Shown here: in pieces, positions 46,798 through 57,999 of the stretch
How positions within the stretch are numbered: position 1 is the first letter of the stretch
Layout: each line of letters opens with the position of its first letter
From: Lentisphaerae bacterium GWF2_49_21
GTDB taxonomy: Bacteria > Verrucomicrobiota > Lentisphaeria > Victivallales > GWF2-50-93
Length of the DNA stretch: 64,000 bases
Assembly: GCA_001804805.1 (NCBI GenBank)
Contig: MHBH01000005.1
Coordinates: 62,001-126,000, forward strand
Direction: 5' to 3'
Notes under the pieces: generated by a model
Told to the model about the DNA's origin: nothing
What the model saw: the letters and a program-made list of their open reading frames with translations, nothing else
Database searches by the model: none
Made by a program: the position numbers and the translations under genes

Positions 46798-46888
46798 TAT
46801 TCGGAAGAGAGGGGGCTCAATGGTTTCATACAATATAACTTTGTGCCTCTGTGCCTTTGTGGTGAAAGCATGAAACATGCCTCACGGC

Positions 46889-46960
46889 ATTGACTACAAA
46901 CGAATTGCAAAAACAATTCGGAATTTGTTCGTAGTTAAGCTCGCAAGAGCTGTTATTGTG
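46889..46960. repeat. GCAA-loop hairpin repeat with palindromic leader
   Basis: ACTACAAACGAATTG (46892-46906) faces CAATTCGGAATTTGTTCGTA (46914-46933), then the core AGCTC-GCAA-GAGCT (46938-46951). It is related to 11993-12061 and lies in the gene-free leader of the phosphodiesterase-like gene. The ORF-track extension upstream of 47057 is a translation of this repeat. Confidence 0.6.
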
Positions 46961-47056
46961 TTCTTCTTTGTTTGTCCTCCTTTGAAGGCTGGAACTTGTT
47001 TGAGATTTGGGTGTTTGGAATTTGGAACTTGTAAAACGAGATATGACGGTGCAGAC

Positions 47057-48334
47057 ATGAAGCTTTTAGTCGTCCAGGTTGCCGCCCTCAGCTATGATTT
47101 CTGGCAGAAGCACGCCAGCGCGGACTTCTGGAAAAAACTCAACAAGAAAAACATCAAGACAATTTTTCCCGCTCTGACGTGCCCTGTCCAGGCAAGCTTC
47201 CGTACTGGACTCCCTCCCGCCGAACATGGTATGATCGCAAACGGTTTTTTCTACAAGAAGCTCTGCAAGACTTTTTTCTGGGAGCAGTCGTCCGCCATAT
47301 ATGACGGTAAGAGGATATGGGACAAGTTCCGCAGAAACGGCGGGACTGTCGGGCAGATATGCTGGCAGCAGAGCATCGGGCGCGACAGCGACCTGATCCT
47401 GTCGCCTGCGCCGATACACAAGCATCACGGGGGCATGATACAGGACTTCTATTCCAAGCCGGACGGACTTTATTCCCTGCTGTGCACCGAGATAGGGCAG
47501 GATTTCAACCTGCGTTCATACTGGGGGCCGTTTACTTCGATTGAATCGACAAAGTGGATCGCATCGGCTGCGGCCAAGCTCCTTGTCTCTGACGGGGCTA
47601 CGGATCTGTTGCTGGTCTATCTTCCTCATCTCGACTACGATCTCCAGAAATTCGGGCCTGACAGCCAGAAGGCAAAGGATGCTTTTATACAGGCTGAAAA
47701 GGAAGTAGAAAAGCTTTTTGCCGCGGCAAAACTTGCCGGATATGAGATGCTGCTCTTTGGAGATTACGCCATAACAGCGGCGGAGCAGCCGATATTTCCG
47801 AACAGGATCCTGTGGGACGCCGGATTCTTCGTGGAAAGGAATGTCCAGGGTCGTTTATATCCAGACCTGTACGCCTCAAGGGCTTTTGCGATGGTGGACC
47901 ACCAGATCGCCCACATCTACCTTGCAGACAAGAGCGAGATCGGAGCCGTGGCAGAACTTTTTGACGATGTCAAAGGCCTCCTGAGGATCCTTACCCGGAA
48001 TGAAATGAATAATGAACGATGCGGCGACATTATCATGGAAGCGGCTGCGGGCAGCTGGTTCTCCTACAAGTGGTGGGACCATCCTTCCGAAGCCCCGGAC
48101 TATGCGACTCATGTCGACATCCACAACAAGCCCGGCTTCGATCCCTGCGAGCTTTTCATGTCCCTCTGGCCGCCGATGAGCGTTGAGCAGGACGATACGA
48201 AGATCAAGGGAACCCACGGCTCCTCGTACCTTCCGGAGCATGACGTCTTCTGCGGCACAACCTTTGAACTGGACAGCAATATCTCCTCGCTCCTCGACGC
48301 GTCGGTGATGGTCGGAGCGATGCTGGAGAAATAA
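47057..48334 (+). CDS. Alkaline-phosphatase-superfamily phosphodiesterase/pyrophosphatase-like
   Basis: 425 residues from the ATG at 47057. The fold signature is present: the nucleophile Thr in FPALTCPVQASFRTGLPPAE then HG; metal ligands in YLPHLDYDLQK, LFGDYAI, MVDHQIAHIY and GTHGSSYLPEHD. These match type I phosphodiesterase/nucleotide pyrophosphatase relatives. There is no signal peptide, so it is probably cytoplasmic. Substrate unknown. The upstream part of the ORF-track frame is repeat sequence and is excluded. Confidence 0.85.
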   Translation: MKLLVVQVAALSYDFWQKHASADFWKKLNKKNIKTIFPALTCPVQASFRTGLPPAEHGMIANGFFYKKLCKTFFWEQSSAIYDGKRIWDKFRRNGGTVGQICWQQSIGRDSDLILSPAPIHKHHGGMIQDFYSKPDGLYSLLCTEIGQDFNLRSYWGPFTSIESTKWIASAAAKLLVSDGATDLLLVYLPHLDYDLQKFGPDSQKAKDAFIQAEKEVEKLFAAAKLAGYEMLLFGDYAITAAEQPIFPNRILWDAGFFVERNVQGRLYPDLYASRAFAMVDHQIAHIYLADKSEIGAVAELFDDVKGLLRILTRNEMNNERCGDIIMEAAAGSWFSYKWWDHPSEAPDYATHVDIHNKPGFDPCELFMSLWPPMSVEQDDTKIKGTHGSSYLPEHDVFCGTTFELDSNISSLLDASVMVGAMLEK

Positions 48335-48467: not shown

Positions 48468-49442
48468 ATGAGCAGTTCCGTCCAGTGCAGCCTGTGCCCG
48501 AGATACTGCATCATCATGCCCGGACAGAGCGGGGAATGCAGGGTCAGGGTGAACATCGACGGCAAGCTGACCTCGGTTGTCTACGGCTTTCCTTGCTCCA
48601 TAAACGTAGATCCAATAGAGAAGAAGCCGTGCTTCCATTTCTTCCCTGGGACAAAGTCTCTTTCCACGGCGACCGTCGGATGCAATCTGCACTGCCTGAA
48701 CTGCCAGAACTGGGAGATCTCGCAGACCAATCCCGAGGACAGCGAAGCCTACAGCTGTCCGCCGGAAAAACTCGTTGAAGCCGCTGCGAAACACAAGTGC
48801 GAGAGCATTTCCTACACGTATACGGATCCCGTGGTCTTCTATGAATATGTTTTGGATACTGCGAAACTCGCACAGGAAAAGAAGATCAGGAACGTCCTGG
48901 TGACGGCAGGATATATAAATACCAAGCCATGGAAGAATCTGCTGAAGCATGTTGATGTCGCCAGGATCGATCTGAAAGGGATCACCGAGGAATTCTACCA
49001 GAAAGTCCCGCAGGCCACCCTCAAGCCGGTTCTTGATGCGCTGGTGACCGCCAGGGAGGCCGGTGTCCATGTCGAAGTAATCAACCTGCTCATACCGACT
49101 TTGAACGACAAGTCCGAGGATATCAGGAAGCTCGTCCAGTGGATCGTGAAGAATATTGGTAAACAGACACCGATGCACTTTTCCAGGTTCTTTCCCATAT
49201 ACAAGATGAAGAATCTTCCGCCGACGCCCCTTGAGACTCTTGACCTTGCCAGGAAGATCGCCATGGAGGAGGGGCTTGAATACGTCTATATCGGCAACAT
49301 AGCGAGCAGGGAAGGACAGAACACATACTGTCCGGCCTGCAAGAAGCTTCTGATAGAACGGAATGGCTACACACTCCTGCAGAACAACCTCAAGGATGGC
49401 AAATGCCCATGCGGCAGGGAGATTTACGGCGTATGGAAATGA
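48468..49442 (+). CDS. AmmeMemoRadiSam system radical SAM enzyme
   Basis: 324 residues from the ATG at 48468 (AAGGA about 7 nt upstream). N-terminal cysteines (CSLCPRYC ... GECRVR) and the IEKKPCFHFFPGTKSLSTAT block precede the radical SAM cluster motif GCNLHCLNCQNWEIS (CX3CX2C). A C-terminal CPACKK ... CPCGREI region could bind a second cluster or zinc. The family always occurs with Memo and AMMECR1 proteins; its reaction is not established. Its stop overlaps the next small gene by ATGA. Confidence 0.93.
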   Translation: MSSSVQCSLCPRYCIIMPGQSGECRVRVNIDGKLTSVVYGFPCSINVDPIEKKPCFHFFPGTKSLSTATVGCNLHCLNCQNWEISQTNPEDSEAYSCPPEKLVEAAAKHKCESISYTYTDPVVFYEYVLDTAKLAQEKKIRNVLVTAGYINTKPWKNLLKHVDVARIDLKGITEEFYQKVPQATLKPVLDALVTAREAGVHVEVINLLIPTLNDKSEDIRKLVQWIVKNIGKQTPMHFSRFFPIYKMKNLPPTPLETLDLARKIAMEEGLEYVYIGNIASREGQNTYCPACKKLLIERNGYTLLQNNLKDGKCPCGREIYGVWK

Positions 49443-49630
49443 ACCGGAGAAGCTTTTTAAAATATTTTTTTATTCTGGCGGGTGCTGGTTGTGCTGCCGG
49501 TGCTGTCGTGTTTGATTTTACAGGAGCATGTGCTAAATCGTCGCTCATTCCCGCCAGAATAAAAGAATATAAGGGTAGAATAAGGCCCATGGGTGATGAG
49601 ATCGGTGCCGAAGGGAAATGGAACGGGTGA
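49439..49630 (+). CDS. Small twin-arginine-signal protein in the AmmeMemoRadiSam locus
   Basis: 63 residues from the ATG at 49439, overlapping the radical SAM stop by 4 nt. The N-terminus NRRSFLKYFFILAGAG fits a twin-arginine signal (RRxFLK plus hydrophobic run with AGCAAG). The mature part is short: about 35 residues, ending YKGRIRPMGDEIGAEGKWNG. I recall similar short Tat proteins with a conserved Trp-Gly ending beside this radical SAM gene in other genomes, but could not check. Its tight coupling suggests it is a partner or substrate of the radical SAM/Memo proteins. Confidence 0.7.
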   Translation: MNRRSFLKYFFILAGAGCAAGAVVFDFTGACAKSSLIPARIKEYKGRIRPMGDEIGAEGKWNG

Positions 49631-49661
49631 TTATAATAGAAATCTTATGTTGGCTGTATTT

Positions 49662-49751
49662 GATGCGTAGCATCTTTGGAGTGCGAAGCCCCTGCTTCGC
49701 TTTGAATTAAAAGCGGCACGGGGGTGCCGCAGTCCAAAGACGCTTCGCGTC
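49662..49751. repeat. Three-way-junction RNA-like repeat element
   Basis: Stems: GATGC/GCATC (49662-49674); outer TTTGGA/TCCAAA (49675-49680 and 49733-49738) enclosing GCGAAGC/GCTTCGC (49683-49700) and GCGGCAC/GTGCCGC (49713-49730); then GACGC/GCGTC (49739-49751). All arms are perfect. It lies between the Tat protein gene and the small ORF at 49810. Confidence 0.7.
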
Positions 49752-49809
49752 ATAAAGCAATATAACGGAAACTAATGCGCGTCCTTGGATGTGTTTATAG
49801 GAGCAAAAC

Positions 49810-49968
49810 ATGAAAAATAATAGTATCTTTGCGGCAGAGGCAAAACAGAAGAAAAAGGCAAGGGAAATCCTTGGTGTTCTAAAGAGGATAAGAAGTAATC
49901 AAGCTGAATGTGTTCCTTCAAATAAATTAACCGCCAGGGAAATGGTGAATGCAGGGAGGAAAAGATGA
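49810..49968 (+). CDS. Small basic protein upstream of the Memo-AMMECR1 gene
   Basis: 52 residues, too short for the ORF track: starts MKNNSIFAAEAKQKKKAREI, ends KLTAREMVNAGRKR. AGGAG lies about 6 nt before the ATG, and the stop overlaps the Memo gene start by ATGA, so it is almost certainly translated. It is rich in Lys/Arg and probably helical. The family is not recognised; it faintly resembles the tails of small antitoxins, but the evidence is weak. Confidence 0.65.
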   Translation: MKNNSIFAAEAKQKKKAREILGVLKRIRSNQAECVPSNKLTAREMVNAGRKR

Positions 49969-51530
49969 AAGCTGGGAATGCATGTAAGACGATATTCTGC
50001 CTTGTGTTTTTCATGTCACTTGTTCTTTTCTGTTTCGCGGAAATAGAAAAAAACTTCAAGTCCACGCTTGCAGGAAGATGGTATCCGGCTGACAAGGCGG
50101 AGCTGACAAAGCTCCTTGACGGGCTTTACTCCAAGGCCGAGGGGAAGGAACTAAAGGATGTCATTGCCCTCATCCAGCCGCATGCCGGATACCAATATTC
50201 GGGAAGGACGGCTTTCTGCGGGATAAAATCACTGGACAGGACTTGCAAGCGGATCGTGATCATCGGGCCGACACATTACCTTCCCATGAGCAATGTCTTC
50301 AGCGTTCCGCGATATGACAGCTTCGAGACTCCGCTCGGGAAGGTTGCGATGGACACGGAATTCATCGATAAGCTGTTGAAGGAAAAATCCCTTTTCAAGG
50401 ATATTCCGGAAGCATTGACGAATGAGCACAGTGTCCAAATCCAGGTTCCCTTGCTCCAGTATGATTTTACAATCAAAAATCAAAAATCGAAAATTGAAAA
50501 TCCCCCTGGCTTCCCCAAGATCGTCTTCATCATCGCGGGGGAATGTTCCTTGGAGACGATTAATGAGGCAGGGAGAATAATAAAAGGTCTTATGGACTCG
50601 GAGACTCTTCTGCTGATAAGTTCGGATTTCACGCACTACGGGGCGAGTTTTGGTTTTGTACCGTTCAAGGACAATATTCCGGAGAAGCTCAAGGAGCTGG
50701 ATACTAGCGTCTATGATTTCATCGAGAAGAAGGATTCAGGAGGATTCCTGAAATACATCAAGGATACTGGCGATACGGTATGCGGCAATATGCCTATAGC
50801 CACTGCACTCGCAATGCTTCCGGAAAATTCAAAGTGCATCAAGCTCTATTATACGACATCTGGTGAAATCAGCGGTGATTACAGGAATTCAGTAAGCTAT
50901 TTCTCTATTGCATTTACTGGAAAATGGGATGGGAAAAAGGAGGCAGTGATGAATGATAATGGAAAGAAGGGATTGACAGACGAGGAGAAATCAAGGTTGC
51001 TGGTTCTTGCAAGGAAGTCAATTGTATATTATCTCGAAAAGGGGCGTGATCCCACAACGGAAGAGCTGGGTATCGAACTGACCGCAGGCATGAAGGAGAA
51101 GAGGGCGGCATTCGTCACTTTGAAGGAGGAAGGCGAACTTCGCGGATGCATCGGCGAGATATTCCCGAGCCAGGAGCTTTACATGTCGGTTATCGTCCAT
51201 GCTATTGCCGCCGCAGTGAAGGATAGGCGTTTTGAACCTGTCCGGAAGGACGAAGTCGACAAGCTTGAGATAGATATCTCGGCCCTCACCCCGCCTAAAG
51301 AGGTGGCCTCCTATAAGGACATCAAGATCGGCACAGACGGAATGGTTCTAAAAAAAGGATTCCGATCCGCCGTGTTCCTCCCCCAGGTCGCAACGGAGCA
51401 GGGATGGAACCTTGAGACGACATTGACCCACCTTGCGAACAAGGCCGGTCTCCCGTCGGACGCATGGAAGGAAGGCGCGAACTATCTGACGTTCCAGGCC
51501 GAAGTCTTCGGGGAGGAAGAAAAGAAATAA
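49965..51530 (+). CDS. AmmeMemoRadiSam proteins B and A fused (Memo-AMMECR1)
   Basis: 521 residues. An N-terminal signal peptide or anchor (CLVFFMSLVLFCFAEI), the Memo domain (about 35-330) with LIQPHAGYQYSG, IIGPTHYLP, NEHSVQIQVPLLQY and ISSDFTHYG, then the AMMECR1 domain (about 345-515) with RAAFVTLKEEGELRGCIGEI and FEPVRKDEVDKLEIDIS. The His/Asp residues of the Memo active-site-like cleft are present. Residues about 168-181 (TIKNQKSKIENPPG) look like an in-frame repeat-derived insertion in a surface loop. The signal puts the protein outside the cytoplasm, matching the Tat-type small protein upstream. Confidence 0.93.
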   Translation: MKAGNACKTIFCLVFFMSLVLFCFAEIEKNFKSTLAGRWYPADKAELTKLLDGLYSKAEGKELKDVIALIQPHAGYQYSGRTAFCGIKSLDRTCKRIVIIGPTHYLPMSNVFSVPRYDSFETPLGKVAMDTEFIDKLLKEKSLFKDIPEALTNEHSVQIQVPLLQYDFTIKNQKSKIENPPGFPKIVFIIAGECSLETINEAGRIIKGLMDSETLLLISSDFTHYGASFGFVPFKDNIPEKLKELDTSVYDFIEKKDSGGFLKYIKDTGDTVCGNMPIATALAMLPENSKCIKLYYTTSGEISGDYRNSVSYFSIAFTGKWDGKKEAVMNDNGKKGLTDEEKSRLLVLARKSIVYYLEKGRDPTTEELGIELTAGMKEKRAAFVTLKEEGELRGCIGEIFPSQELYMSVIVHAIAAAVKDRRFEPVRKDEVDKLEIDISALTPPKEVASYKDIKIGTDGMVLKKGFRSAVFLPQVATEQGWNLETTLTHLANKAGLPSDAWKEGANYLTFQAEVFGEEEKK

Positions 51531-51533
51531 TCT

Positions 51534-51600
51534 TGACAGGATAACTGGATTCACAGGATGAATTAATTTCAGGAAATCATGTAAATCCTGTAATCCTGTC
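51534..51600. repeat. Palindromic GACAGGAT ... ATCCTGTC element
   Basis: TTGACAGGATAACTGGATTC ... ATCCTGTAATCCTGTC: imperfect arms of direct-plus-inverted CAGGATT units. It occupies the whole gap between the Memo gene and the next start codon, leaving no Shine-Dalgarno. Confidence 0.6.
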
Positions 51601-51606
51601 CAATAT

Positions 51607-54321
51607 ATGCTTATGGAAAAACACAGGAAGAATTTTGCGATATTCGCAATCGGGCTTTTCGCGATAGGCTCGCAGACCCTTCTTTTCCGGGAATTCCTCG
51701 GCGCCTTTGAGAGCAACGACATCGCGGTTGCGATCTTCTTCGGCGCATGGTTCCTCTGGATCGCAATCGCCTCATCCTTCGTCTTGTTATTTAAGGAAAG
51801 CTCTGCGAAGCTCGCAATGCGGACGCCTCTTCTCATGCTGGCATATGTTCCGGCGTTCATCCTGCAGTATTACCTGATCCTCCATATCAGGAAATTCTCG
51901 GGAGTCGAAAGCTATGAGCTGTTCCCGCTGGTAAAAATGACCGCCTGGTCCCTGATCGTCAATGCGCCGGTGAGCTTTGTCACCGGTGCGCTATTTCCTC
52001 TCGCGTGCCGCTGGCTCAAGGAAAGTTCGGATGTGCCGGTGGCGAAAACGTTCATCTTCGAATCACTCGGAAGCTTCATCGGCGGAGCCGGAACGACAGT
52101 TCTGCTTTATTTCAGTTGTCCATCCATGCTGGTGTCTTCAATAATATGTTGTCTTATAATTGCAGCTTTTTCTCTTTTCTGCAGCAGGAAGACACAGATT
52201 GCCCTTGCGGGTATCTTAATTCTTGCCCTTGTTTTCAGGATTGACGGTCATTTTTCGAGCCTGCTCAGGCTTGAAAAATGGAACAAGCTGATGCCGGGCG
52301 AGAAATATTTAGGAACATTCAGCACCCCGCAGGCGGAATACCTCTATGGGAGCTACAAGGATGCTTTCACTGTCGTCCGCGAGGGCGGAGTATGCGAATC
52401 AATGCCCGACTCTGAAAGCGCATGGAAGATCATTTCCATCCATCTCAGCCAGAGACCAATCGCATCAAAGATCCTCGTCGTAGGTTCCGGACTCAATATC
52501 TGCAGGGAGCTTCTGCGGATTCCTCAGATCAAGGAAGTCGCCTGGGCGCACTATGACAATGAATATTCCGCCAGGGTGAACAGCTACGCACCAGAAAAAT
52601 TGAGGATAAAAGATAAGCGCTTCCAGCCGGTTCCCGGCGATATAAGGAATTTTCTGCACCAGAAAATTGCTTATTATGATATTGCGATCATTAATCTTCC
52701 GGAAGCCTCAAGTTCAGTGCTTAACCGTTATTTTACCACCCAGTTCTATGAGTTTCTCAGGGATTCCCTCGTAACAGGAGGTGTTGCAGGAATAAGAATA
52801 TCCAGCGGGGAGAATGTCATAGGCCCTGAACTCGCCTTCATCGGAGCGTCCGTGAAGACTACGCTTGGTGGAGTTTTCAAGAATGAAGTCCTGGTCCCCG
52901 GAGACAGCGCATGGTTCATTGTCTCGGACGAGGATGTTATTTCGAACTCTCCGGACATCCTTGAGAGGAATTTTTCCCGGAACAGGGCGGCCGCAAGGAT
53001 ATTTCCGCCGCAGGCCCTGAGATCGCTATATCTGCCGGACAGGGAATCCTGGGCTCTCTCGAAATACGAAGAAGTCGGTCCAGGTAGCGTTGCCATGATC
53101 AACGATGATTCCAAGCCGCTCGGTTTCCTTTTTTCGCTTTTCCTTTCTTCAAGGCAGTCGGGCGCTGACATCACTTCGATCTGCATGAAGGTTTTGCGTC
53201 TTGGAATTCTATTTGTCCTGGTGCCGCTTCTTGTTTTTGTTTTCCTTACTCTGATTTCAGCATTTTCTGAACGTTCCAACGGGGCAGGGGACGCCGGCCC
53301 CTGGCGCATAGTGTTCTGTGCCGGATTCGTGAGCATAGGTACGATAATCATCCTCATGTATCTTTTCCAGACTTCACTGGGAAGCCTGTACCTGAATGCC
53401 GGACTTCTCTCAGCGCTGTTCATGTTCGGACTTGCGGCGGGCGGAATTATTGCGGCTCATCCGACCGTAGAGAAGAAGGCGAGTGCCGGAATTTTGCTGC
53501 TGTCATCGCTGATGGCGCATGTTCTTCTGCTTTTCCTCATCTCGTATCAGTCGCCGGACTTCTGGAATTTCGCCTGGTTCGTCGTTGCGTTTCTATTGTC
53601 CGGGATCTGCTGTGGCACATATTTCCCGATAGCCGCCAGGATCTTCAGGGAATCGGGCAGGGGGGAGATCGAAGCTGGAGGCGGTATTGAGACTTCCGAT
53701 CATGTCGGTGCATGCGCCGGAGCGCTGGTCTGCGGAATTTTCCTCGTGCCTCTTTACGGCACTGAAGGCGCGCTCATGTTTTTCATGATGCTTCTAGCGT
53801 TGAATATTCCCTTGTCCTGCACGAGGATTTTCCTCGGGAGCACCGGACATGAAAGTTCAGCCTCTGCTTTGATATTGCGTCATGGCGCCTATATCCTATT
53901 CGGTGCAGGCGCTTGTTTTGCATTGTGGGGGAAGATTATCTTTAATATGAACATCGCATTTTACATAATGATTGCAGCGGCCGCGCTCTTTGTTTTCCTT
54001 GCCTTCAGGAAGGGAAGGACCAGCAGGTTCATCATGCTTGCTGCGGCGCTTGCCGTAGCAATATCATCCGCAGTTGAATTCTATTCCGCAGTAAAAAGAA
54101 GGGAAACCGAATCTTCCAAGCCAAGACCGCTTCAGATTCTCGAGCAGGCGTCAAAGCCTGCGGCCGAGAAAAAGACGAAGGATGAGGTTTCCTCCGAAAC
54201 TGAGAACATCCCGACCGGCGTGCCCCGCGATGTCAATATGGACAAGCTCAACAGCAAGATCAAGTCCGGCCGTCTCTCCAGCAAGGAAGCAGAATTCTAT
54301 GACAAGCTGGATGGGCAGTAG
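51607..54321 (+). CDS. Membrane-fused spermidine-synthase-like protein
   Basis: About 904 residues. N-terminal helices (about 8-215; FAIFAIGLFAIGSQTLLFRE), then a spermidine-synthase-like Rossmann domain (about 220-460; YGSYKDAFTVV, KILVVGSGLNICRELL, AWAHYDNEYSA, YYDIAIINLPEASSSVLNRY, FTTQFYEFLRDSL). Further membrane helices (about 520-840) follow, and a charged C-terminal tail. The layout matches the fused MFS/spermidine synthase group. Whether it transfers aminopropyl groups is unknown. A second ATG at 51613 is possible. It directly follows the AmmeMemoRadiSam genes. Confidence 0.85.
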   Translation: MLMEKHRKNFAIFAIGLFAIGSQTLLFREFLGAFESNDIAVAIFFGAWFLWIAIASSFVLLFKESSAKLAMRTPLLMLAYVPAFILQYYLILHIRKFSGVESYELFPLVKMTAWSLIVNAPVSFVTGALFPLACRWLKESSDVPVAKTFIFESLGSFIGGAGTTVLLYFSCPSMLVSSIICCLIIAAFSLFCSRKTQIALAGILILALVFRIDGHFSSLLRLEKWNKLMPGEKYLGTFSTPQAEYLYGSYKDAFTVVREGGVCESMPDSESAWKIISIHLSQRPIASKILVVGSGLNICRELLRIPQIKEVAWAHYDNEYSARVNSYAPEKLRIKDKRFQPVPGDIRNFLHQKIAYYDIAIINLPEASSSVLNRYFTTQFYEFLRDSLVTGGVAGIRISSGENVIGPELAFIGASVKTTLGGVFKNEVLVPGDSAWFIVSDEDVISNSPDILERNFSRNRAAARIFPPQALRSLYLPDRESWALSKYEEVGPGSVAMINDDSKPLGFLFSLFLSSRQSGADITSICMKVLRLGILFVLVPLLVFVFLTLISAFSERSNGAGDAGPWRIVFCAGFVSIGTIIILMYLFQTSLGSLYLNAGLLSALFMFGLAAGGIIAAHPTVEKKASAGILLLSSLMAHVLLLFLISYQSPDFWNFAWFVVAFLLSGICCGTYFPIAARIFRESGRGEIEAGGGIETSDHVGACAGALVCGIFLVPLYGTEGALMFFMMLLALNIPLSCTRIFLGSTGHESSASALILRHGAYILFGAGACFALWGKIIFNMNIAFYIMIAAAALFVFLAFRKGRTSRFIMLAAALAVAISSAVEFYSAVKRRETESSKPRPLQILEQASKPAAEKKTKDEVSSETENIPTGVPRDVNMDKLNSKIKSGRLSSKEAEFYDKLDGQ

Positions 54322-54930: not shown

Positions 54931-55002
54931 TTACGCCATCCTGTCCTTGGGCATCTTCACTTCGAGGCTTTTGTCGCCGGGGGAATGTGCCCTGCCGAAC
55001 TC
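54931..55002 (-). pseudogene. Remnant of a second GH65 3' end
   Basis: The last ~20 codons (HSPGDKSLEVKMPKDRMA and stop) match the end of the intact GH65 protein at 55696 (YSIGDKPLEVKMPKSRMA), about 75% identical at DNA level over the first ~35 bases and then diverging. The rest of the gene is missing, and a VapBC module lies between the two tails. This indicates an old tandem GH65 copy now reduced to its tail. The ORF track reports it as part of a spurious 60-residue frame. Confidence 0.65.
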
Positions 55003-55018
55003 CGGTTTATGGAGATTC

Positions 55019-55390
55019 CTATGATTGGCGGAGGATTTTGAGGATCTGCTCATCAAAGGTGATGATTTCATCTCCGTTGACCTTGTGATATGCACAGAGT
55101 AGGGCATCCACAAAATCGAGTTTCCTGGACGAATACAATTTCAATCCTTGAAGAATTATTTCAATGTTGAAGACCGAGACATGTGGAGATTCCATGAGAG
55201 AGGTTAACTTGTCCATAATCTCAATGCGTTCAACAGAATAGACCTTTTCAAGGACATATACAACCTCGCAGACGACCTCTGAGGGGATGAATACCTGATT
55301 AGACTCGATTTGTTTTGCTGCCTTGGCAGAAAGCAAAGGATGGTCATCCAGAAGATATCTAAGGATTACGTTCGCATCAACTATGCGCAT
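55019..55390 (-). CDS. PIN-domain toxin (VapC-like)
   Basis: 123 residues from the ATG at 55390. PIN residues: MRIVDANVILRYLLDD, PSEVVCEVVYVLEKVY, KLDFVDALLCAYHK and IITFDEQIL. The ORF-track start adds 13 residues that overlap the antitoxin frame and are not needed. It overlaps the upstream antitoxin gene by 14 nt. Likely an endoribonuclease toxin. It sits between a GH65 gene and a GH65 tail remnant. Confidence 0.87.
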   Translation of the reverse strand: MRIVDANVILRYLLDDHPLLSAKAAKQIESNQVFIPSEVVCEVVYVLEKVYSVERIEIMDKLTSLMESPHVSVFNIEIILQGLKLYSSRKLDFVDALLCAYHKVNGDEIITFDEQILKILRQS

Positions 55391-55628
55391 GTTTAACCTG
55401 CGCGGCCAGACTCCAGGCCTTTTTTTCAAGCTGCATCAGCGAAGGATTGGAGTATTTCCGTAAAGAGCCTCTAATTCTAGGTTTGTTCCGCCTCTTATCG
55501 GAATGAAGAATTTTATTGTTTTCAACTGGCATTATTATAAGCTCGACTTTTCCTGATGAGAAGCCATTAGGCAAATCATACACAATATGATTTGATTTTA
55601 CTTCAACTATGTCCCTGATCGCATTCAT
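55377..55628 (-). CDS. VapB-like antitoxin
   Basis: 83 residues. It pairs with the PIN toxin gene that overlaps its 3' end. The N-terminal half (RDIVEVKSNHIVYDLPNGF, KVELIIMPVEN) looks like a short beta-rich DNA-binding part; the C-terminal half is basic and helical (RIRGSLRKYSNPSLMQLEKK then AW), as expected for toxin binding. AAAGGTGG precedes the ATG. The specific antitoxin class is not certain; the call rests mainly on position and size. Confidence 0.75.
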   Translation of the reverse strand: MNAIRDIVEVKSNHIVYDLPNGFSSGKVELIIMPVENNKILHSDKRRNKPRIRGSLRKYSNPSLMQLEKKAWSLAAQVKHAHS

Positions 55629-55695
55629 ATTCCACCTTTAAAGTTCCCCTTTATATTTAAGGTATATCCAGATCAGGCGAAATCAAATATGCAGA

Positions 55696-57999
55696 TTACG
55701 CCATCCTTGACTTTGGCATCTTCACTTCAAGAGGTTTGTCACCTATGGAATATGACTTGTCAAAGACTTCGACCTTGATTGCTCCCTTCCCGCCGATCTC
55801 GAGACGTACGACCTTCCTGTCGATCCGGACGTTCAATATCCTGCCGAGATAGCGCAGGCTGAACTTGAAGGATTTCCATTTCTTCGGAAGTGACGGCCGG
55901 AATGAAAGACATTCACCATCAGTGCGGAGTCCGCCGAATCCATAGACCACGTTCATCCAGGCTGCGGCCATGGATGTCGTATGGAGTCCCTGGTTCGTAT
56001 TGTTGTTGTAGTCGTCGAGGTCAAGGCGTGCGGCATGGCCCCAGTAGCTGTAGGCCTTGTTGTTCAGCCCGAGTTCGGCCGCCATGATCGAATGGACTCC
56101 CGGCGAGAGGGAGGATTCGTGCGAACATCGCGGTTCGTAGAATTCAAAGTTCGCCTTCTTTACCTTGTCTGAAAATTCCTGTGAATAGAAAAAGAGGATC
56201 AGCATGGCGTCAGGCTGTTTGATCATGTCGGTCCTGAACAGCTTGTAATACGCCCAGTTGTGGTAGAGCGGGAATTCCTCGGGCTTGATCTTGTCCACTT
56301 CGAGATGCGGCATGTCGAAATAGCCATCGTGCTGTTCGTATACGCCTGTCTTCTTGTCCTGCGGAACACGCATGCGCTCCGCCATTTTCATCCAGCCCTT
56401 CATCTCTTCTTTTTTGAGATCTAGTTTTTTGACGATGGCATCGAGTTTGACAGGAGCGGCCTTCTTCATTTCCTCCAGAACTGAGAGAGTGTATTCAAAA
56501 GATTTCTTGACCATGAAGTTGGTGTAGCAGTTGTTGTGGGACATCATGTGGAATTCATCGGGTCCCATGACGCACCAGAAGCCGTATTCGCCGGTGAGTT
56601 GGGCCCAGCCGCCGCGGCTTGCATAGTATCGGCTGATCTCGACGAGCATCTCAATGCCGTGTCCGTAGAGGAAATCCTTGTCTTTTACAAGATGTGAATA
56701 ATGCCAGATGCCGTATGCGACCGCGACAGGGACATGGATTTCCAGATCGCCGTGCTGCCATACCGAGCAAGCCTCGGTGCCGTCAATCGTCTCCATCGGG
56801 TATCTCGCGCCCTTGCAGCCTTTTTCAATCGCACGCTGTTTCGCCTGGGGGAGGGTCAGGTAACGGTACTCGAGTAGATTTTTTGCAGCGGCAGGATTGT
56901 TGAAAATATAGAATGGAAGGCAGTAGGTCTCGGTGTCCCACCAGGTATGACCGTGGTATTCCTCGCCAGTGAGACCTTTTGCAGAGACGTTCAATGATGG
57001 ATCGACTCCGTGATAGGTCTGGTGCAGCTGGAATATCCCGAATCGGACGCCCTGTTGGTTTTCAGGATCGCCTTCTATCTCTATGTCCTGTTCGCTCCAG
57101 ATCTTTTTCCAGCAGGCGACATGTTCTGCACGGACCTTTTCATAAGTAGCGCAGTTCAGCTCCATCGCCGACTTCATGCTCCTGTTCCAGAAATCATCAT
57201 CCTTCAGGGCTTTCTTGTCGGTGAAGTTCACGGCTATGCGGTCGAATGAGGCCTTTTCATTGTTCTTCAGGTTCAGCTTGAAGGAACGGGAAATGATCTG
57301 GTCTCCGGTTTCATTGCAGGACTCGGATTTCGCCGGAGATTTTATTTTCATCGATGAGAAGACTTTCTGGGCGCTCTTCAGCGTGCGTGCCATGATTGCC
57401 GCGACATCTCCGTCATGTTCCTTCCTTATGGTGCTCCAGAAGCATTTATTGCGGTTGTGCTGGAAGTTTGAAAAATCAAGACCGAGTTTGACTTCGGCCT
57501 TCCCTGTAAATCCCATTGATGTCAGGATGATGCGCTGTATCCCGAGATGCGGCTCCACCATGCTGAGGACGCGTTCAAATTCGATCCTGATATCACCTTC
57601 AGCGGCATGCCAGATGAAACTTCTTCTGAGGACGCCCTCACGGAGATCAAGGGAGCGGACAAAATGGCTGAAGCGGCATTTTCCGAGATCGAGCTCCTCC
57701 TTTTCAGTCCTGATCCTGGTGTAGAGCCAGTCGACGGAATTCAGCATGAAATGGAAACGTTTCGGAAAACCGTTGTAGCATACAGGATGGTTGATCGGTT
57801 CCTCCTCGAAAATTCCGTTGAAGAAACTGCCGACGAACCTGTCGACGCTGCAGCCCTCCTCGAAGTATCCGCGCACTCCCATGAACTCGTTTCCGAGAGA
57901 GAAGATGGATTCTGCGACTTTCGCATGTTCAGGCTGGAATCCCTTTTCCTCAATTATCCAGGGATCCGTCGAAAGAAATTTCTTGGCGATTTTTGTCAT
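55696..57999 (-). CDS. Glycoside hydrolase family 65 phosphorylase-like enzyme
   Basis: 767 residues, full length for GH65 (maltose, trehalose or kojibiose phosphorylases). N-terminal beta-sandwich (ESIFSLGNEFMGVRGYFEEG), catalytic (alpha/alpha)6 barrel with GLTGEEYHGHTWWDTETYCL and the general-acid Glu in VMGPDEFHMMSHNNCYTN, then CSHESSLSPGVHSIMAAELG in the phosphate-binding region, and a C-terminal beta domain. It would cleave an alpha-glucoside with phosphate, giving beta-glucose 1-phosphate. The exact disaccharide cannot be read. It follows the YkgJ-like gene on the minus strand after a hairpin. Confidence 0.93.
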   Translation of the reverse strand: MTKIAKKFLSTDPWIIEEKGFQPEHAKVAESIFSLGNEFMGVRGYFEEGCSVDRFVGSFFNGIFEEEPINHPVCYNGFPKRFHFMLNSVDWLYTRIRTEKEELDLGKCRFSHFVRSLDLREGVLRRSFIWHAAEGDIRIEFERVLSMVEPHLGIQRIILTSMGFTGKAEVKLGLDFSNFQHNRNKCFWSTIRKEHDGDVAAIMARTLKSAQKVFSSMKIKSPAKSESCNETGDQIISRSFKLNLKNNEKASFDRIAVNFTDKKALKDDDFWNRSMKSAMELNCATYEKVRAEHVACWKKIWSEQDIEIEGDPENQQGVRFGIFQLHQTYHGVDPSLNVSAKGLTGEEYHGHTWWDTETYCLPFYIFNNPAAAKNLLEYRYLTLPQAKQRAIEKGCKGARYPMETIDGTEACSVWQHGDLEIHVPVAVAYGIWHYSHLVKDKDFLYGHGIEMLVEISRYYASRGGWAQLTGEYGFWCVMGPDEFHMMSHNNCYTNFMVKKSFEYTLSVLEEMKKAAPVKLDAIVKKLDLKKEEMKGWMKMAERMRVPQDKKTGVYEQHDGYFDMPHLEVDKIKPEEFPLYHNWAYYKLFRTDMIKQPDAMLILFFYSQEFSDKVKKANFEFYEPRCSHESSLSPGVHSIMAAELGLNNKAYSYWGHAARLDLDDYNNNTNQGLHTTSMAAAWMNVVYGFGGLRTDGECLSFRPSLPKKWKSFKFSLRYLGRILNVRIDRKVVRLEIGGKGAIKVEVFDKSYSIGDKPLEVKMPKSRMA

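Follow-up and report, generated by a model that had tools for sequence, protein, structure and literature searches.

Why should a radical S-adenosylmethionine (SAM) enzyme be encoded next to proteins that carry signals for leaving the cytoplasm? The question is raised by a stretch of 64,000 nucleotides from Lentisphaerae bacterium GWF2_49_21 (contig MHBH01000005.1, positions 62,001 to 126,000), called here the window, in which a radical SAM enzyme is encoded near a fusion of Memo and AMMECR1. These are the three families of the widespread AmmeMemoRadiSam system (TIGR04337, TIGR04336, and TIGR04335), with conserved radical SAM and Memo residues. The Memo and AMMECR1 families have human relatives, MEMO1 and AMMECR1. 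What differs here from AmmeMemoRadiSam as described is the presence of export signals or of a split-off escort for twin-arginine translocation (Tat), a constant membrane partner, and a segment, EAxYY, carried on another protein. We consider it probable that the AmmeMemoRadiSam system of the window is extracytoplasmic, with a small protein escorting its radical SAM enzyme through Tat. The features of the locus are these (positions in the window):

48468..49442, + strand: AmmeMemoRadiSam radical SAM enzyme (TIGR04337, 375.1 bits against a cut-off of 220), within the predicted exported clade (support 99)
49439..49630, + strand: 63-residue twin-arginine protein ending in KWNG (W-x-G type), proposed as a Tat escort from its ATGA overlap and its recurrence
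49810..49968, + strand: 52-residue basic open reading frame (ORF), a PhdYeFM antitoxin remnant and not in the system, as judged by an intact pair at the same spot in locus L037
49965..51530, + strand: Memo-AMMECR1 fusion with an N-terminal export signal (TIGR04336 and TIGR04335 over cut-off; hydrophobic N-terminus MKAGNACKTIFCLVFFMSLVLFCFA)
51607..54321, + strand: membrane protein of 904 residues, with seven transmembrane segments, a synthase-like domain predicted to lie outside, at least seven more transmembrane segments, and a predicted periplasmic tail
52303..53121, + strand: spermidine-synthase-like domain of the membrane protein (approximately residues 233-505), without aminopropyltransferase residues
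54220..54318, + strand: C-terminal tail of the membrane protein, VPRDVNMDKLNSKIKSGRLSSKEAEFYDKLDGQ, bearing an EAxFY segment recognized by the distribution of the motif among homologs

The original prediction for this DNA took five consecutive genes as one set. Four of them hold together, and the 52-residue basic ORF drops out as antitoxin debris. The ATGA by which the radical SAM gene was said to overlap the small Tat gene is indeed there.

Two clades of radical SAM enzymes

Are the signals peculiar to the window? The survey took in TIGR04337 matches from 91 of the phylum's 195 genomes, plus 80 named loci spread over many phyla, together with their neighbors. The named records include Lentisphaerota, Verrucomicrobia, Planctomycetota, Hydrogenedentota, Omnitrophota, Bacteroidales, Deltaproteobacteria, Magnetococcales, and Altiarchaeota, among others. 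In all, 146 distinct radical SAM loci or domains entered the tree and the locus comparison. Tat and transmembrane segments were called by simple pattern rules, and localization throughout is predicted from sequence.

The tree of the 146 domains splits, with support of 99, into a cytosolic and an exported clade, as their signals lead us to call them; both keep the core residues of radical SAM enzymes. The cytosolic clade (31 rows plus L024, which the script scored as fused through an artefact of reading upstream) has no export signal on any protein and no spermidine-synthase-like gene nearby. Within the exported clade, 48 loci have an enzyme with a Tat, general secretory (Sec), or transmembrane N-terminus of its own, and 55 have a small Tat gene. 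(The script counted 35 Tat and 11 Sec or transmembrane N-termini and 51 small-gene loci, numbers raised by correction by hand.) The two conditions are mutually exclusive: no locus among the 146 has both.

The Memo-AMMECR1 protein follows the same division, since Memo has a signal before it in 46 of 49 loci from the exported clade and in none of nine cytosolic ones. The window's fusion, two genes away from the radical SAM gene, scores 194 bits with TIGR04336 (cut-off 26) and 173 with TIGR04335 (cut-off 99). At the Memo ligand positions, the three histidines are invariant in 67 sequences, and the cysteine is present in 62. A pathway acting outside the cytoplasm, as originally predicted, is thus supported by the survey of signals. 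That prediction placed just the Memo-AMMECR1 and Tat proteins outside; both placements agree with the survey, which indicates that the radical SAM enzyme is exported too.

The small Tat protein

What might carry out an enzyme that has no signal? In 55 of the 146 loci, a small Tat ORF comes immediately after the radical SAM gene, mostly at an offset of -4 or -10, and it is found only after radical SAM genes without a signal of their own. It encodes 47 to 74 residues. Because the same ATGA-type overlap and C-terminal W-x-G recur across several phyla, the ORF is not a product of chance; none was seen in 20 cytosolic control loci. Two types can be distinguished, one ending in W-x-G (36 loci, one of them assigned from its N-terminus, as masked bases break the ORF) and one carrying or resembling EAxYY...LAG (19 loci). 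When 31 proteins of the first type and 20 other small proteins were aligned, a twin-arginine motif followed by a hydrophobic stretch proved to be conserved, and the terminal W-x-G is strict in the 31. TatC is encoded in the window's genome (173 bits) and in 30 of 32 genomes with exported-type enzymes; those without are G040, whose enzyme has a transmembrane anchor, and G142. The original prediction hung on the recurrence of small Tat ORFs and of spermidine-synthase-like genes beside radical SAM genes in other genomes. Both recur, the latter with radical SAM loci of the exported clade.

Perhaps the small protein is not an escort but a substrate, whose C-terminal W-x-G is modified by the enzyme in the cytoplasm, with Tat then exporting the product as a peptide-derived cofactor or signal. 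The overlap within an operon would suit a substrate, as would a short conserved peptide with so strict an ending, and among solved structures the enzyme's nearest relatives are activases of the PflA type, which act on glycine. PflA is the best relative of the TIGR04337 family in PDB by both sequence and fold (3cb8, TM-score 0.82 by target). The AmmeMemoRadiSam enzyme adds N- and C-terminal cysteine clusters and falls far below the PflA cut-off: the window's enzyme has 58.4 bits with the activase profile TIGR02493, where 231.75 are required. Against a substrate, 48 enzymes of the exported clade carry the signal in cis and have no separate small protein, and in the 19 loci of the other type the segment at the end of most small proteins is one that belongs to the enzyme's N-terminus. 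A substrate would also leave the co-exported Memo-AMMECR1 and membrane proteins unexplained. We therefore regard this explanation as unlikely. As a general precursor of a ribosomally synthesized and post-translationally modified peptide, the small protein was rejected, fused signals taking its place in most other lineages.

The membrane protein

If the enzyme is exported, what might await it outside? By itself, the window's membrane protein has no match in Pfam. The profile of its family matches spermidine synthases over the middle of the protein (3anx, E 1e-36), and an AlphaFold2 model (predicted local distance difference test score, pLDDT, of 84), silent as to orientation, confirms the synthase fold by its match to 1uir. 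The fold is thus that of a spermidine synthase, but the residues of an aminopropyltransferase are missing. The original prediction had this last enzyme supplying a polyamine-like group to an exported substrate. Such a role might be read from the true synthase fold and from the predicted location of the domain outside, but the acidic residue of GGGDG is absent from all 57 aligned homologs, the catalytic aspartate is replaced, mostly by asparagine, and the ribose-binding glutamate is lost as well in the window's lineage (0 of 21). With the active-site residues gone, polyamine transfer was rejected as a role for the protein, and we hold that account of the locus to be very improbable.

Averaged hydropathy and charge predict an N-terminus inside, seven transmembrane segments, the synthase-like domain outside, seven more transmembrane segments, further segments, and the tail outside. 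The synthase-like domain and the tail are placed outside because of the distribution of lysine and arginine in the loops (2.6-4.1 inside and 0.7-1.1 outside), following the positive-inside rule. These placements bear on another explanation, that the Tat-like segments are signal anchors that tether the enzyme to the cytoplasmic face of the membrane with no export at all. That would leave the enzyme where SAM and reductants are found, in the cytosol, and some exported-clade enzymes (L045, L046) do have plain transmembrane anchors. Anchors with basic N-termini, however, would leave the enzyme outside, the positive-inside rule puts the segment-bearing tail and the FMN domain of longer homologs outside as well, and tethering does not account for a signal on Memo-AMMECR1, present at 46 of 49 loci in the exported clade and at no cytosolic one. 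We doubt, then, that the enzyme is merely tethered, and prefer to think that it crosses the membrane.

The membrane protein goes with the exported enzyme. An ortholog (E of 7e-136 or better) is found in 31 of the 195 genomes, 30 of which have a shown exported-type enzyme. In the 31st (G010), an EAxYY-bearing enzyme adjoins the ortholog, its signal not having been checked. Genomes whose exported enzyme is located elsewhere still encode an ortholog; the one apparent exception, G101, has an interrupted, diverged copy that bears the tail. No ortholog neighbors any of 20 cytosolic enzymes. The co-occurrence over genomes gives a Fisher p of 3e-35, a figure that ignores relatedness and assumes no exported enzyme in genomes not classified by hand.

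Many homologs are longer, with NosR-like FMN_bind (FMN, flavin mononucleotide) and Fer4_5 domains (e.g., in L065 and L053), as in the trans-membrane electron conduits NosR and NapH. The difference is that the conduit here is fused to a synthase-like membrane protein, and it is missing from the window's copy, where neither domain was found. In four Omnitrophota loci (L105, L108, L134, L140), a DsbD-like (or CcdA-like) membrane gene adjoins the exported radical SAM or Memo-AMMECR1 gene (two were checked as DsbD_2). An all-against-all clustering of neighbors gave, beyond the core, nothing specific in more than a few loci apart from these DsbD-like genes. The family resembles fused MFS/spermidine synthases (NF037959) in having membrane halves around a spermidine-synthase domain, and the L149 homolog passes that profile (58.3 bits, cut-off 40). 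The window's protein does not match it, and its family differs in lacking aminopropyltransferase residues and in having an NR[FY][YF]TxEFF motif, the EAxYY C-tail, and, in many members, the NosR-like extension.

There may be a second, related system: in G110 and G020, copies of the synthase-like membrane protein stand beside a radical SAM gene that is more distantly related (L206, L211).

A segment on different carriers

How might the enzyme and the membrane protein meet? In cytosolic enzymes, CxLCP is preceded at the N-terminus by a segment such as LHEARWWQPEQGNK. In enzymes fused to Tat signals, this EAxYY segment is retained, lying after the signal and ahead of the core (LHEAKFYEPLAGKK in L062), and small proteins of the EAxYY type end with EAxYY...LAG, that is, with the linker of the fused enzymes and the N-terminus of the cytosolic ones. 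The natural Tat fusion of L062 was folded as a single chain with AlphaFold2. In the model, the signal helix and the linker have low confidence, and the block EAKFYEPLAG has a pLDDT of about 97, for which reason the block is predicted to be part of the enzyme's fold.

The window's enzyme is a truncated form, which begins directly at VQCxLCP without the EAxYY segment of its cytosolic relatives. Indeed, throughout the W-x-G lineage the segment is on neither enzyme nor small protein. In the window, it turns up at the end of the membrane protein (EAxFY, residues 891-904, GRLSSKEAEFYDKLDGQ), a feature absent from the original prediction. The tail motif is present on 22 of 27 membrane-protein homologs from the W-x-G lineage, compared to none of 33 from fused and none of 13 from EAxYY-split loci. 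In three of the remaining five W-x-G cases, a separate neighboring gene carries the segment (L089, L091, L103). A search for it in L056, L060, L070-L072, L075, L088, and L092 found nothing. From this distribution we infer that the tail may be homologous to the enzyme's N-terminus.

One fused Tat enzyme, from a Chloroflexi-labelled metagenome-assembled genome (L123, 3174-4475), has CNACH in the linker between signal and core, possibly a c-type haem site.

A proposed mechanism

Sequence itself shows which families the proteins belong to, that the genes recur, that signal and small gene exclude each other, how EAxYY is distributed, and what co-occurs in genomes. From these observations we infer actual export, hitchhiking, docking on the tail, the supply of SAM, the route of electrons, and the reaction itself. 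The radical SAM enzyme would leave the cytoplasm via Tat already folded and with iron-sulfur clusters in place. Most exported relatives that lack the small gene would rely on the enzyme's own N-terminal signal; in the window's lineage, the separate 63-residue protein would bind the enzyme, probably through the C-terminal W-x-G tail, and export it by hitchhiking. The Memo-AMMECR1 fusion would exit by Sec. Once outside, the enzyme would dock on the periplasmic tail of the 904-residue membrane protein, which would provide the missing EAxFY segment in trans and keep the enzyme beside the spermidine-synthase-like, adenosyl-binding domain. Electrons for the radical chemistry could come by way of the NosR-like FMN/iron-sulfur conduit or the DsbD-like gene, as found in many relatives. 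As for SAM, the likeliest means of bringing it outside may be the multi-transmembrane part of the membrane protein.

For Tat hitchhiking there are precedents in the tyrosinase pair MelC1/MelC2 (PMC2758597) and in hydrogenases (PMC10924467), in which, likewise, a folded metalloprotein without a twin-arginine signal relies on that of a partner; a further precedent is given in PMC4273604. The present case would differ in having a radical SAM enzyme as cargo; the escort, moreover, is a mere 47-74 residues long, and relatives show the fused state.

Several considerations weigh against this mechanism. The loci are related and the tree requires only about two split events, so that the counts are not independent. 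The window's small protein has 12.4 bits with Pfam's TAT_signal, short of the cut-off of 22.7, and TatC was not found in G142 despite its Tat-type enzyme. The window's genome encodes no FMN_bind protein. The EAxYY motif is short, and the homology of the tail rests on motif and distribution. To our knowledge, no radical SAM enzyme works outside the cytoplasm; all are intracellular, as are SAM and strong reductants, and we know of no periplasmic source of SAM. Neither an exported radical SAM enzyme nor such a source appears in the literature covered, a partial coverage in which an earlier mention could have been missed (e.g., in the 2019 Journal of Biological Chemistry analysis of the Memo superfamily). 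Lastly, there are seven truncated enzymes that lack both a signal and a small gene. One of these (L130) has masked bases and is uninformative, and four further exported-clade loci run off the ends of their contigs. Five of the seven group together as one clade, which seems to have gone back to the cytosol in a coordinated way: in L075, a member, Memo and AMMECR1 also lack signals, and no ortholog of the membrane protein was found in its genome or those of its clade-mates, save for a weak generic match in G035.

On balance, we lean toward a broader proposal, a clade of radical SAM enzymes outside the cytoplasm to which a dedicated multi-transmembrane protein brings SAM and electrons and whose N-terminal segment has moved among four carriers: the enzyme, a Tat fusion, a Tat escort, and a membrane tail. 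If so, these would be the first radical SAM enzymes known to work outside the cytoplasm, and their existence would imply SAM and low-potential electrons there. The long-unsolved AmmeMemoRadiSam system would gain a new handle, its partners, compartment, and physical tether now being named.

The basic ORF and neighboring genes

Why, then, does a basic ORF interrupt the operon? The original prediction counted its product as a member. The 52-residue ORF at 49810-49968 is a remnant of a Phd/YefM antitoxin, inside the same operon gap that in L037, from a genome of the same genus, holds an intact PhdYeFM antitoxin and PIN toxin (L037 9695-10401). It aligns only to the C-terminal part of L037's intact PF02604 antitoxin, and a Pfam profile search gave no PF02604 match. 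Its ATGA overlap with the Memo-AMMECR1 fusion mirrors the overlap between antitoxin and toxin. Confined to the one genus, it was rejected as a component of the system.

Upstream of the radical SAM gene lies a type I phosphodiesterase gene (46877-48334, PF01663), with no matching family among the conserved neighbors of related loci. Downstream, at 54931-55764, a 69-nucleotide direct repeat (75% identity) copies the 3' end of a minus-strand gene (55696-57999) that by eye resembles a GH65-type glycoside phosphorylase. Between the copies are two minus-strand ORFs, 55019-55429, which looks PIN-like, and 55377-55628. The layout is as if a toxin-antitoxin pair had inserted at the end of the gene.

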